Source of the DNA: Terriglobia bacterium
GTDB lineage: Bacteria > Acidobacteriota > Terriglobia > Bryobacterales > Bryobacteraceae
Length of the DNA stretch: 64,000 nt
Direction of reading: 5' to 3'
Assembly: GCA_025363475.1 (NCBI GenBank)
Contig: JANYDS010000073.1
Location: forward strand, 1-64,000
The position numbers were made by a program, and so were the translations under genes. Position 1 is the first letter of the stretch, and each line of letters opens with the position of its first letter. Under the pieces are notes generated by a model. That model was not told the DNA's origin and made no database searches. It worked only from the letters and a program-made list of their open reading frames with translations. Below, piece after piece: positions 4,963-38,976 of the stretch.

Positions 4963-5835
4963 TCAAACCATTGGCCCCGGATAGCTGGCGCCCAGTAAAA
5001 CATCTTCATCGTTCACCAGACTGCGCAGAATTTCCAGATGCAGGTAATCCACCATCGTCGGCGATTGTGAAAGATAGGTCTGCAGAAACTGCTGCCGCGC
5101 CACGTCGATATGGGGCTTCAGCGCCAAATACACATCGCAATCCTCAGTGCCTTTGCGCAAAGCCTCTTCCTGATAGATACGCCACTCGGCCACCCGCACG
5201 CGCGCCATCCGCTGCGCCTGCAAGTGTAGTTTCTGGTCCGCCGCACTCAGAGCATCCCAGGCATGGTTCTCCGTGGCAGTCTTAACCGCAGGCTCAACTT
5301 TCGCCACCGGTTGCAGAGCCTCAAGGCGCATCGCCGCTGCTTCACACAGCAATTCAATGTGGGCCGCTTTGACGCTGCCGGCCGCCACCACCATCGCGAC
5401 CACAGCCTCGCGGACCACTACGGGAACCAGGTACGCCTTATCATCCACATCGCTGTCTTCGCTGCGCAACGCATTCGCCAGGACTCGCGAAAGTTGACCA
5501 TCAGACACCAGGGTGACAATCAAATCGCGGCTTTCCACTGCCGAAACAATGGCTGGTGCCTGATTCAATTCAAATGCTCCCCCAGCGAACCGCGCCACCG
5601 GCTGGCGATTGTTTTCAAAGGTCAGCAACAGGGTTTGCTCCGCGCACGGGGCACAGGTCTCATTGAGCAACTGCAGCACCTGGCCGTCACTTGTCGCCTG
5701 ACGAAAACGGCGCACCGTTTGATTCAAAGACTCCGCATGGGAGCGCCGCAGCGCTGCCAGTTCCGAATCGAGAACCGCCGCCAGTTCATCCGCCATCGCG
5801 GCCTGATGCTTCCCCACTACCTCACGCCATTGCAT
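4963..5835 (-). CDS. hypothetical protein, possible GAF-like fold
   Basis: I do not recognise this 290-residue protein. A helical N-terminus (about 1-60) leads to a section with CAPCAEQTLLLTF and alternating hydrophobic strands ending in AAMRLEAL, which in outline resembles a GAF domain; this is a weak inference. The rest is helical and charged (LHLQAQRMARVRVAEW). There is no signal peptide or membrane segment. The start at 5835 is chosen because GGGAG lies five bases before it; an ATG 24 bases upstream lacks a site. The stop touches the start of the lytic transglycosylase, so they are probably co-transcribed. Confidence 0.6.
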   Translation of the reverse strand: MQWREVVGKHQAAMADELAAVLDSELAALRRSHAESLNQTVRRFRQATSDGQVLQLLNETCAPCAEQTLLLTFENNRQPVARFAGGAFELNQAPAIVSAVESRDLIVTLVSDGQLSRVLANALRSEDSDVDDKAYLVPVVVREAVVAMVVAAGSVKAAHIELLCEAAAMRLEALQPVAKVEPAVKTATENHAWDALSAADQKLHLQAQRMARVRVAEWRIYQEEALRKGTEDCDVYLALKPHIDVARQQFLQTYLSQSPTMVDYLHLEILRSLVNDEDVLLGASYPGPMV

Positions 5836-5847
5836 GCTGTCTCCCAT

Positions 5848-5873
5848 GTTACGGCACACGGTTACGGCACACG
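5848..5873. repeat. 13-bp perfect tandem repeat
   Basis: GTTACGGCACACG occurs twice in a row at 5848-5860 and 5861-5873, just upstream of the minus-strand gene starting at 5835 and between two divergent genes. It could be an operator pair or a slippage product. Confidence 0.7.
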
Positions 5874-6038
5874 GTCCAGTACCGGGTTTCCGCTGAAAAG
5901 GAAACGCCGCGAAGTTTTACAGCATCCTTAAATACAGCACGATCTATCGTTGACGCCGGGTCCTGCCGATATTCAAACAGAAGGCGCGCAACATGATTGG
6001 CAGAACGCGTGCTCTTCGTAACAACAGGGGGAAGCGAA

Positions 6039-26029: not shown

Positions 26030-28508
26030 ATGCCGCGCCTCACTTTCACCCCCGCCCTGGTACTTGCTGCCGCCGCCCTGTCCGCGACGATTCTGACTGC
26101 CGACGATTTCCCCTATCACCAGCCCTCCAGTGTGGTGATGGACGTTTTGAATGCTCCGCCGACTCCCTCTGTTTCGGTGAGTCCCCAGCGTGATTATGCT
26201 GTGTTTTCGCAGGGCGTGAGGTATCCGCCGATCAGTGAAGTTGCCCAGCCGATGCTCCGCCTCGCAGGCATCCGCATCGATACGAACACCACTGGGCTGC
26301 ACATGGTGCCCTATGCCGTTTCATATCTGGTGAAGCGCCTTTCAGACGGTGCCGATGTGAAGCTGACGATTCCTGTTGAAGCAAAACTGGGTGCGCCAGT
26401 GTGGAGCCCCGATGGAAAGCATTTTGCATTTACCAATACGACTGGGCCATGGAATCGAACTCTGGCTGGCAACGGTAGCCATGGGCCAGACGTGGCGGTT
26501 TGATGGTGTGGCGGTCAACGGCGTCCTCAGCAGCGACGGCGTTCGCGGCGGCCCGGCGAGCGTGGAATGGCTGGGCGACAACAAGACACTGCTGGTACGT
26601 CTGGTGCCTGGCGGACGCGGCGCGCCTCCTTCGATTCCCGCAATTCCGAAGGGTCCGCATGTGCAGGAGAGTCTGGGCCATGCCGGGCCCGCCCCGACGT
26701 TTGAAGATCTGCTGGCCACGCCGCACGATGAAGATTTGTTCGATTACTACGCGACAGCGCAGCTGGCGTATCTGGATTCGGTCAGCGGCAAGGTTTCACC
26801 GCTGGGCAATCCGGGGATTTATACAATCGTGCGGCCCTCGCCGGACGAAAAGCACTTGCTCACAGGCCGCTTGCACAGACCATATTCCTATCAGTTGCCC
26901 GCCGGTTCGTTTCCGCAGGATGTCCAGGTTTGGGACCGCGCAGCCAAAGTAGAATACTCGATCGCTCGTCTGCCGCTGGCCGAACGTGTACCGATTGCCG
27001 GTGTGAGAACGGGGCCTCGATCCTATGACTGGATGAACCGCAAGACCGCTAGCCTGACTTGGGTGGAAGCCCTTGACGGTGGCAATCCCGTAGAGCAGGT
27101 TCCTTTTCGCGGCCGCATTCTTTCTCATGCCGCGCCGTTTCAGGGTGAGCCGGTTGAGATAGCGAAAGTAAAGGAACGCTTTGCAGGAATGCAACCGCTG
27201 GACAACGGCAAAGCGCTGGTGGAAGACTACGAACGCAAGAGCCGGGTGGTCCGTACCCTGGAATTTGATCTGGATAAACCGGGCAGTGAGGCAAAAGTTG
27301 TTTTCAGTCGCAATGAGGGGGATGCGTATCGGGATCCGGGTTCGCCTTTTTCGCGCGTGTTGCCCACTGGCCACAGAGGCGTGATTCAAACAGGGGACGA
27401 CATTCTGCTGTCAGGTCCGGGATCTTCACCCGCCGGTGACCGGCCCTTCGTTGATCGCTTCAATCTCGCGACCGGCAAGGCCCAGCGCCTGTTCCAGGCG
27501 GATGCCGGCGGCTACGAAGGTATTGAAGCTGTGCTGGATGACAACGGAACACGGCTGCTCACGCGGCGCGAGAGTCCGACTGAGCTGCCGAATTACTTTG
27601 TTCGCAACCGGGCGGAGTTGAAGCAGCTCACGAACTTCGCCAATCCTGTGCCGCAGACCGCCGGGATCAGGAAACAACTGGTCAATTACAAGCGCGCCGA
27701 CGGTGTGCCGCTTTCTTTTACCCTGTATCTTCCTGCCGATTACAAACAGGGGACACGCCTGCCTGCGCTGCTCCGGGCTTATCCTTATAAGTTCTTTATG
27801 AGTTCCTTATGAGTTCAGTATGAGTTCAGTGATGCCGATACAGCGGGTCAGGTGACCGGTCATGATTCCCAAAGTTTTACGCTCCTGAACTACCACCAGC
27901 TGGGCGTGCCGCAGGGCTATGCGCTGATCGATAATGCCGCCATGCCGATTGTGGGCGATCCGGAGACGGTGAATAATACCCAGGTCGAGCAGTTGCAGAT
28001 GGATGCTCAGGCAGCGATCGACAAGGCTGTGGAGATGGGCGTTGTGGACCGGGATCGCGTGGGCGTTTTCGGGCATAGCTATGGTGCGTTTATGACCGCA
28101 AATCTGCTGGCGCATACAAAGCTGTTTCGTGCCGGAGTGGCAGAGAGCGGGGCTTATAACCGCACGCTAACGCCCTTCGGTTTTCAGTCTGAGCGGCGCA
28201 CATTCTGGCAGGCCGGCGATGTTTACACCAAGATGTCGCCCTGCTGGTTTGCGGATAAGATCAAGACGCCGATTCTGATGATTCATGGCGAGGCCGATGA
28301 CAATACGGGAACGTTTCCCATTCAATCGGAACGCATGTATGCGGCAATTCGCGGTAATGGCGGCGTGGTGCGGCTGGTGATGCTGCCCTCGGAAGCGCAT
28401 GGTTATCGCGGCAAGGAAACCATGGAGCATGTGCTTTATGAAGAACTGACCTGGTTCGACAAGTATTTGAAGGCACCGGCGAGTGGCGGGACGCAGAACA
28501 GGCGCTAA
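26030..28508 (+). pseudogene. S9-family peptidase gene, broken
   Basis: One gene of about 820 codons in pieces. The first frame (26030-26503) has a signal peptide and the beta-propeller start. A frame change at about 26445 leads to the long middle part (to 27812). There an in-frame TGA lies within four copies of an 11-bp repeat (27785-27828); the reading frame after it is the same and encodes the catalytic domain with GHSYGAF (Ser), HGEADDNTG (Asp) and EAHGYRGK (His). It resembles the glutamyl-endopeptidase-like (CGEP-type) prolyl oligopeptidase clan. As sequenced it cannot give an intact enzyme. The tandem repeat explains the stop: one copy instead of four would read through. Confidence 0.82.
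27785..27828 (+). repeat. 11-bp tandem repeat, four copies
   Basis: Four consecutive units (27785-27795, 27796-27806, 27807-27817, 27818-27828) share the core ATGAGTTC with few changes (TTATAAGTTCT, TTATGAGTTCC, TTATGAGTTCA, GTATGAGTTCA). They lie in the peptidase gene and carry the TGA at 27810-27812. The net gain over one unit is 33 bp, so the frame is kept but a stop is created. Confidence 0.9.
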
Positions 28509-35989: not shown

Positions 35990-38530
35990 TTGCAAACGGG
36001 ACAAAGATTAGAGGTGCTTCACCGTCGCTGGCTGCGGTATCTTCGTCCAGGTCATTTTCTGCTTCCGATTTCCCTGTGTCTGGTATTTTTGGCCGGGTTT
36101 CTAAACTTTCGAAATGATCGTGATCTCAAACAGTCCGCCGCCGAACTGGGGCGGCTCAATGGTTTGTTGTCTGCCAATGCCGCAGTGCTCTCGGCGCTGA
36201 CGGATCTTGAGACCGGGCAACGGGGATATCTGCTAACCGGAGAGCCTGCCTACCTGGAGCCGTATCAACAAGCTTCAGGCCGGCTGCCCCGATTGCTTGA
36301 GAAGCTGCGTGTGGAAATGGTCCAGCCGAGACAGCAGGAACGCTATAGCCAGCTTGAGAACGTGATTGCGGACAGGCGGGCCGAGATGTCAGCAACGATC
36401 CTGATGCGTGGGCTGGCAGGCACTGACGCTGCGCTGACGATTGTAAAAACAGAGTCGGGCCGGAACAGTATGGACGCGATTCGCAGGCTATCCGGGGAAA
36501 TCAACCAGCAGACACAGGAAACCCTGGCAGCAAATGCGAACACCCTGCTCAGACGCCAGAACGGGGCGGCATTCACCTCTTTGGGAATTACGTGCAGCCT
36601 GTTTCTTCTTCTGAGTCTGGCTGCGGCTATGATTCAGCGGGGTGTACGGCGTCGCGATGACCTGATTGGACTGCTGGATAACTCGCGGCAGCAGCTTCAT
36701 ACAACGTTGTCCAGTATCGGCGACGGTGTTGTGGTTACAGACGCCGAGGGGCGCATTACGTTTATCAATCCGGTAGCCGCACGAATCTCCGGCTGGGACA
36801 GCAAAACGGTTACAGGCAGAAAGGCGGACGAGGTACTACCGCTATTGCGGGAGGACACGCGTGAGCCGATAGACCATCCCGTGCTGCAGGTGCTTCGGGA
36901 CAAAAAGCCCAGCGGAATCGCACCAAGCACTGTATTGATACGGCAGGACGGCACGGAAATTCCGGTGGATGACAGCGCCGCAATCATTCCTGTGAGCGAC
37001 GGGTCCGGTCGCGCGGGCCCAAGCATCTTCGGCGTGGTTATGGTGATTCGCGACATCACTGGCCAGCGGATGGCGGAAAACTCCGTGCGGCAATGGGAGC
37101 AGGTGTTTGACGACGCCGGATTTGGCATCGCCATGCTTTCGCTGGACGGCGTGCCATCATTCCAGGAAGTAAATCCCGCCTTTGCCAGAATGCACGGATA
37201 CACTCGCGATGAAGTGCGGGGCACGCCCATGTCTGCCCTGGTTATGCCTGCCGCGCTGCCTGAAAAGATGAAGTCGCTGTACGAGGCCGGAGCAAGCGGC
37301 CGGGTGGTCATCGAGACCGTACACCGTCGCAGGGACGGCAGCACCTTTCCCGTTATCGCCGACGTAACGGTGGTGCGCGATGCGGCAGGGAATGCCATTT
37401 ACGGAACGGCCTATTATTCAGACATTACTGAGCGGCGGAAGGCGGAAGATGAATTGCGCAGCAACGAAGCGCGCTTCCGAACTCTGGCTGATTCGCTTCC
37501 GCATCTGGTGTGGACTACCCTGCCCGACGGCAGCCCTGATTATTTCAACGTTCGCTGGCAGAACAGCGACAACGATGGAGCGCTCACCGACTCAAAACGA
37601 GGCTGGCACGATTTTTTGCATCCCGATGATCGTGATTCCTGTCTTCACAGTTGGAACGATGCACTTCAAAAAGGGACCGTTTTCCAGACGGAATGCCGCC
37701 TGCGGCAACAGGGCGAGGATCGCTGGCATATTTGCCGTGCAGTACCTGTCCGCGACAATGACGGCAAGATTGTGCGCTGGTTCGGATCGTGCACGGACAT
37801 CCACGATAACCGGCAGGTGGCGGATGCTCTGAGAGTCAGTAAAGACGACTTGCAGCGCTCTAATCTGGATCTGGAACAGTTTGCTTTTGCGGCCAGCCAT
37901 GACATGCAAGAGCCGTTGCGCATGGTGGTAGTTTATTCCCAGCTGCTCAAAGAAGAATTCGCCTCAAGTCTGGGAGAAGCCGGGGTGGCTTATCTGAATT
38001 TCGCTGTTGAGGGGGCCTTGCGCGTGGAGTCCCTGATCCTGGACCTGCTCGCCTATTCCCGCGCTTCCGCTCCTGCGGATGAACAAGCGGAAGGGGTGCT
38101 GGTTGGCGGAACGGTAAGTACGGCAATTGAGAATCTGAACCTGCAAATCACGCAGACTCAGGCGACGGTAGAGGTGGGAGAACTTCCGGTGCTTAACGTG
38201 CCTAAACTTCCAATCGTCATCGTGTTTCAGAATCTCATCAGTAATGCTATTAAATACCGGCAGCCCGGGGTTGTACCTTTCATTACGATATCGGCGGATC
38301 CGAGACCAGGCGAATGGGTGTTTTCTGTGAAGGACAACGGGATTGGTATCGATCCCCAGTATCATGACCAGATTTTCCGGGTGTTCCGCAGGTTGCACGG
38401 GGCTGAATATCCGGGCACGGGGATTGGCTTGGCGCTGTGTCAGCGACTGATCGAACGCCACGGCGGGAAGATCTGGATTGAATCAGGCGATACAGGTTCC
38501 ACTTTTTGTTTTACTTTACCGGCGCGATAA
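35990..38530 (+). CDS. CHASE3-PAS sensor histidine kinase
   Basis: 846 residues from a TTG start. A membrane helix near residues 22-40, an extracytoplasmic CHASE3 domain (ALTDLETGQRGYLLTGE), a second helix near 200, then three PAS domains (about 235-355, 365-485, 490-615), HisKA with H in FAASHDMQEPLR, and HATPase_c (NLISNAIKY, DNGIGIDP, GTGIGLAL). It senses an outside or membrane signal and phosphorylates a response regulator; the Rcp1-like gene five bases downstream is the obvious partner. The sigma-54-type promoter just upstream suggests control by the regulator at 33685. Confidence 0.9.
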   Translation: MQTGQRLEVLHRRWLRYLRPGHFLLPISLCLVFLAGFLNFRNDRDLKQSAAELGRLNGLLSANAAVLSALTDLETGQRGYLLTGEPAYLEPYQQASGRLPRLLEKLRVEMVQPRQQERYSQLENVIADRRAEMSATILMRGLAGTDAALTIVKTESGRNSMDAIRRLSGEINQQTQETLAANANTLLRRQNGAAFTSLGITCSLFLLLSLAAAMIQRGVRRRDDLIGLLDNSRQQLHTTLSSIGDGVVVTDAEGRITFINPVAARISGWDSKTVTGRKADEVLPLLREDTREPIDHPVLQVLRDKKPSGIAPSTVLIRQDGTEIPVDDSAAIIPVSDGSGRAGPSIFGVVMVIRDITGQRMAENSVRQWEQVFDDAGFGIAMLSLDGVPSFQEVNPAFARMHGYTRDEVRGTPMSALVMPAALPEKMKSLYEAGASGRVVIETVHRRRDGSTFPVIADVTVVRDAAGNAIYGTAYYSDITERRKAEDELRSNEARFRTLADSLPHLVWTTLPDGSPDYFNVRWQNSDNDGALTDSKRGWHDFLHPDDRDSCLHSWNDALQKGTVFQTECRLRQQGEDRWHICRAVPVRDNDGKIVRWFGSCTDIHDNRQVADALRVSKDDLQRSNLDLEQFAFAASHDMQEPLRMVVVYSQLLKEEFASSLGEAGVAYLNFAVEGALRVESLILDLLAYSRASAPADEQAEGVLVGGTVSTAIENLNLQITQTQATVEVGELPVLNVPKLPIVIVFQNLISNAIKYRQPGVVPFITISADPRPGEWVFSVKDNGIGIDPQYHDQIFRVFRRLHGAEYPGTGIGLALCQRLIERHGGKIWIESGDTGSTFCFTLPAR

Positions 38531-38535
38531 ATCAT

Positions 38536-38976
38536 ATGCCAGCCAGCGATCAGCAACCATGGACGATTCTTCTTGCCGAAGACAACCCGGGCGATGTGTT
38601 TCTTGTCCGCAGGGCACTGGACAAGCATCATATAAATTACGAATTGCGGCTGGCCAGAAACGGCGAAGATGCTCTGGCCATGGTCCAACAGGCGGACCGT
38701 GGCGAATTCAGGCTTGACCTGATGCTGGTGGACCTCAATCTGCCCCGCTACGACGGAGGGGAAATTGTAGCCGCTGCGCGTGCGGGCGGGCGGCTGGCCA
38801 AAGTACCCATCATTCTGCTGACCTCATCGGATTCGCCGCATGACCGCCAGCGGCTCACAGAACTGGGAGCGAATTTGTATTTCCGTAAACCGTCTGATCT
38901 AAATGGCTTCATGAAAGTGGGCGAACTGGTGATCGCGGTCATGAATAGTGCTGCAGAGAATAGCTGCAGAGAATAG
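38536..38976 (+). CDS. single-domain response regulator, Rcp1-like
   Basis: 146 residues. The acidic pair E15/D16 (LLAEDNPGD), phospho-acceptor D66 (LMLVDLNLP), the threonine/serine in LLTSSDS and lysine in YFRKPSD are all present. There is no output domain, so it acts through protein contacts like Rcp1 of phytochrome systems. The ATG at 38536 is five bases after the kinase stop and is preferred over the upstream frame start. It probably receives phosphate from the CHASE3 kinase. Confidence 0.93.
   Translation: MPASDQQPWTILLAEDNPGDVFLVRRALDKHHINYELRLARNGEDALAMVQQADRGEFRLDLMLVDLNLPRYDGGEIVAAARAGGRLAKVPIILLTSSDSPHDRQRLTELGANLYFRKPSDLNGFMKVGELVIAVMNSAAENSCRE

Follow-up and report, generated by a model that had tools for sequence, protein, structure and literature searches.

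A probable recent pseudogene of an S9 peptidase in a soil acidobacterium, carrying a frameshift and an 11-bp tandem array with an in-frame stop

The window, defined here as the whole 64,000-nucleotide stretch of DNA that was analysed, contains a broken S9 (prolyl oligopeptidase superfamily) peptidase gene of the glutamyl-endopeptidase type at positions 26030 to 28508 of the forward strand, identified by homology to intact frames in congeners. It is very probably a recent pseudogene of a dispensable S9 gene in a soil acidobacterium, produced by two separate small mutations, one of which is an array most likely formed by slippage. Two independent lesions lie within this one gene. Compared with the intact orthologues of congeners, it carries a frameshift at 26444-26447 and a TGA codon at 27810-27812. 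In the proposed course of events, a peptidase gene under normal constraint would have acquired two changes, a frameshift of net +1 near 26445 and an expansion of 11-bp units with an in-frame TGA. The order of the two lesions, and the absence of a working product in vivo, are what we infer from the sequence.

The intact frames of congeners are about 800 codons long (approximately 800 to 877 residues), and the closest cases are 72-75% identical across the principal aligned segment. The C-terminal part of the gene matches the Pfam family Peptidase_S9 (PF00326, E = 2.7e-28). The best solved relative of residues 20-207 of the downstream part is the chloroplast glutamyl endopeptidase (PDB 10eq, E = 3.8e-63). 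The two are alike in the sequence of the hydrolase domain and differ in that the copy in the window is broken at two places. Cleavage after glutamate would be expected of the intact enzyme from its similarity to PDB 10eq. The alpha/beta-hydrolase domain occupies the frame downstream of the array (27822-28505, forward strand), as defined by Pfam and alignment. This domain retains the catalytic motifs of its relatives after the array, namely the serine (GHSYGAFM), the aspartate (GEADDNTG), and the histidine (EAHGY).

The first lesion is located at 26444-26447 on the forward strand and adjoins a GGG run. Four bases are present here at a position where relatives have one codon, for a net +1 shift. 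The proteins of relatives align in the frame of the ATG at 26030 up to 26443, and then in the frame of 26376 from approximately 26448. A frame change near 26445 had been suggested in a first-pass annotation made from the sequence alone, and it is present in the given sequence at this change of aligned frame.

The array consists of four imperfect 11-bp tandem units at 27785-27828 on the forward strand. In order, the units are TTATAAGTTCT, TTATGAGTTCC, TTATGAGTTCA, and GTATGAGTTCA, and neighbouring units differ at one or two of their 11 positions. Tandem Repeats Finder (TRF) reports a period of 11, 4.0 copies, and 87% matches for this segment. A search for adjacent pairs of units with at most three mismatches gave three matches in the window, all of them within the array, compared with a mean of 0.01 in dinucleotide shuffles of the window. 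The array is therefore not a product of chance, and the four copies reported by the first-pass annotation are confirmed. The same pattern has no match elsewhere in the 4,162,877-base assembly. Membership in a dispersed repeat family was rejected because the array has no other copy in the assembly.

Relative to other genomes, the array adds 33 bp (27789-27821, forward strand). This excess was defined by protein alignment and by the DNA of 12 relatives at the AYPxE(F/Y) site. Every intact relative that is readable across the site has a single copy, AYPYEFSDADTAGQVTG or a similar sequence. These relatives read AYPY-EFSDADTAGQVTG and lack the 33 bp. The named relatives of the gene are metagenome-assembled genomes of acidobacteria, including Bryobacter and other Bryobacterales, and the likely placement of the window follows from them. 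The 33 extra nucleotides preserve the frame yet introduce the second lesion, the TGA at 27810-27812 (forward strand), which was located from the end of the ORF and from translation of the array. The ORF at 26376-27812 stops at this codon within the array, and the identical frame then resumes and runs to 28508. The first-pass description of a frame-keeping excess with an internal TGA, followed by continued peptidase reading in the same frame, is thus borne out through the S9 peptidase domain.

A tandem repeat within a coding frame, with a single-unit form that is open, also suggests slippage-driven phase variation, in which the 11-bp copy number would turn the peptidase on and off. De novo repeats in coding regions can revert, with frequencies of 3.6e-5 and 9.3e-7 given for two penA alleles (PMC4169377). 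This explanation is nevertheless very unlikely for the array described here. When the frame is computed from 26448 onward, it is closed at four, three, and two units and is open at one unit only. As the unit length of 11 is not divisible by three, a genuine switch should reach an open state within a step or two, and here the loss of one or two units leaves the frame closed. Once open, with one unit, the gene contains no repeat on which slippage could act, and the array would have to form again de novo. The units are also imperfect, and non-identical units lower the rate of slippage. At any copy number, the gene is still kept closed by the upstream frameshift. Finally, the repeat is absent from all relatives readable at the site, each of which has a single copy in place of a tract of varying copy number. 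The first-pass statement that a change to one copy would reopen the gene holds only in that the single-unit state opens the local frame; the possible on/off switch that was built on it is not supported.

Phase-variable simple-sequence repeats, or contingency loci (PMC11868660), offer a close comparison. The likeness lies in tandem units within a reading frame and in a unit length that is not a multiple of three. The differences are that the units in the window are imperfect, that loss of one unit leaves the frame closed, and that relatives are free of the repeat. A rare multi-step contingency locus can also be imagined, in which the peptidase would be controlled by 11-bp expansion and contraction while population variation or programmed frameshifting put the upstream frame right. 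We regard such an arrangement as exceedingly improbable.

The possibility that the organism itself has an intact gene, which was broken by assembly or sequencing, was considered with the state of other genes in the assembly. The assembly has draft status, with 96 contigs, the frameshift lies next to a GGG run, and the remainder of the peptidase gene is well conserved, all of which would fit an artefact. However, an artefact requires two unrelated errors in one gene, and the array units carry base differences, which would not result from simple duplication during assembly. Among the 19 sites that have a homologue in the relatives compared (394 kb of the assembly), the peptidase gene alone is broken. 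Indel errors are therefore infrequent in this assembly, since the 18 other genes that could be checked are all intact. In principle, each of the lesions might be a mistake of sequencing or assembly, or a variant carried by a minority, and an artefact as the whole explanation is unlikely.

Long open frames persist in both parts of the gene, and a GTG codon at 27852 lies in the hydrolase part, which also keeps its catalytic motifs. The propeller and hydrolase parts could on these grounds be two cooperating proteins of a split gene, a reading that is given very little credence. The propeller part already contains a break near 26445. The ATG codons close to where the array ends (27809, 27820, and 27831) do not read into the hydrolase frame, and no clear ribosome-binding site was seen on inspection before the GTG at 27852. 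A split form of the gene was found in none of the relatives.

The age of the inactivation was estimated from private substitutions on the branch of the window, scored by codon position at sites conserved in other members of the genus. The values for codon positions 1, 2, and 3 are 0.045, 0.051, and 0.328 substitutions per site, respectively. Of 168 otherwise invariant residues, five are changed in the window copy, the same count as in the intact relative L065. The changes include an F replaced by C at alignment column 867 and a W replaced by R just ahead of the array. The branch length is 0.24 for the window and 0.34 for L065. The GC content at third positions (0.645) is in line with that of neighbouring genes (0.57-0.72). 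The third-position bias, together with a number of invariant-residue changes no greater than in L065, indicates that the inactivation is recent. The gene would have been constrained for nearly all of the branch, with constraint lost only recently. Counting against a pseudogene is the small amount of decay beyond the two lesions, which does not exceed that of one intact relative. Of the two possibilities raised in the first-pass annotation, recent inactivation is the one favoured by the two independent lesions, the otherwise conserved coding sequence, and the intact state of the 18 other genes tested.

The array can be reproduced from the single-copy form by three exact 11-bp tandem duplications and two substitutions. 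Both substitutions are transitions: the first unit has a G changed to A, and the second unit a C changed to T. As only two substitutions are needed, the differences between units derive mostly from differing start points of the duplications and not from later mutation. With an 11-bp step first and a 22-bp one after it, three substitutions are required, and this model stands as a possible alternative to three 11-bp steps. The reverse order, 22 bp and then 11 bp, needs nine and was rejected. The model of a single 33-bp duplication was placed at one position only, with an ancestral stretch of 33 bases. When random 33-bp sequences are inserted at that point instead, the minimum is 16 substitutions and the mean is 22. 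The single-copy stretch CCTTATGAGTTCAGTGATG would thus have undergone three exact 11-bp tandem duplications and then two transitions. Replication slippage is the usual explanation of such tandem duplications, and repeated slippage is the most likely origin of this expansion.

A precedent is reportedly the rcsA gene of Yersinia pestis, which a duplication within the gene is said to have inactivated. De novo tandem repeats within a coding region, some with direct repeats at their bounds, are described for the penA beta-lactamase (PMC4169377). Those repeats are, like the array, short coding expansions that the parent gene lacks, and slippage is proposed for part of them, as it is here. The penA repeats keep the protein active, alter its substrate range, and have a measured reversion (PMC4169377), whereas the expansion described here introduces a stop codon and is accompanied by a second lesion.

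The density of tandem arrays in this genome is 91 arrays in 1.18 Mb, compared with 94 in 1.13 Mb for congeners. A genome-wide proneness to 11-bp duplications was rejected as a cause because these densities are equal, and no special duplication process is needed. Arrays of period 11 are slightly more common in this genome, largely owing to an unrelated intergenic repeat family. This dispersed family of 11-bp tandem arrays has the unit TTAGGATCNNN and has no member in the window. It gave 14 pattern matches with at most two mismatches, compared with 0 for a reversed control. The arrays are located on contigs C42 (16181-16228), C45 (18371-18421), C47 (111976-112036), C52 (830-859 and 82204-82233), C96 (1001-1040), and C12 (5984-6002). 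In the four places inspected, they lie at or between the ends of ORFs, and some adjoin a hairpin of the type AAAG(T/C)AGGATC...GATCCT(A/G)CTTT. The unit is absent from all 18 congeners searched with at most one mismatch. The family may represent an array of operators, or else a small repeat element of intergenic regions.

Three other tandem repeats were observed. Contig C8 (L171:8668-8815) contains a 23-bp tandem array of ATTCCGAAGTGATGGCGATCAGT with approximately four copies, followed by similar unit copies in inverted orientation. Within the window, a short 13-bp tandem duplication is present at 38943-38976, at the very end of the response-regulator ORF at 38506-38976. Another short 13-bp tandem duplication is present at 5848-5875, at the edge of the ORF at 4963-5859.

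The assembly has a size of 4.16 Mb at 96% completeness and is the smallest in the genus sample, in which the others range from 4.4 to 7.7 Mb. Gene loss may be general in the lineage. Eight of the 18 congeners gave no match to the peptidase gene, which is therefore dispensable in the genus; its propeller part is present in 11 of 19 genus genomes, this genome included. The closest paralogue in this genome has 31% identity, and the peptidase gene has no close backup here. The significance of the finding is slight beyond annotation, in that one dispensable peptidase would have been lost by textbook slippage. The lesson is that a short in-frame repeat ought not to be labelled a switch until the effect of each copy number on the frame has been checked.
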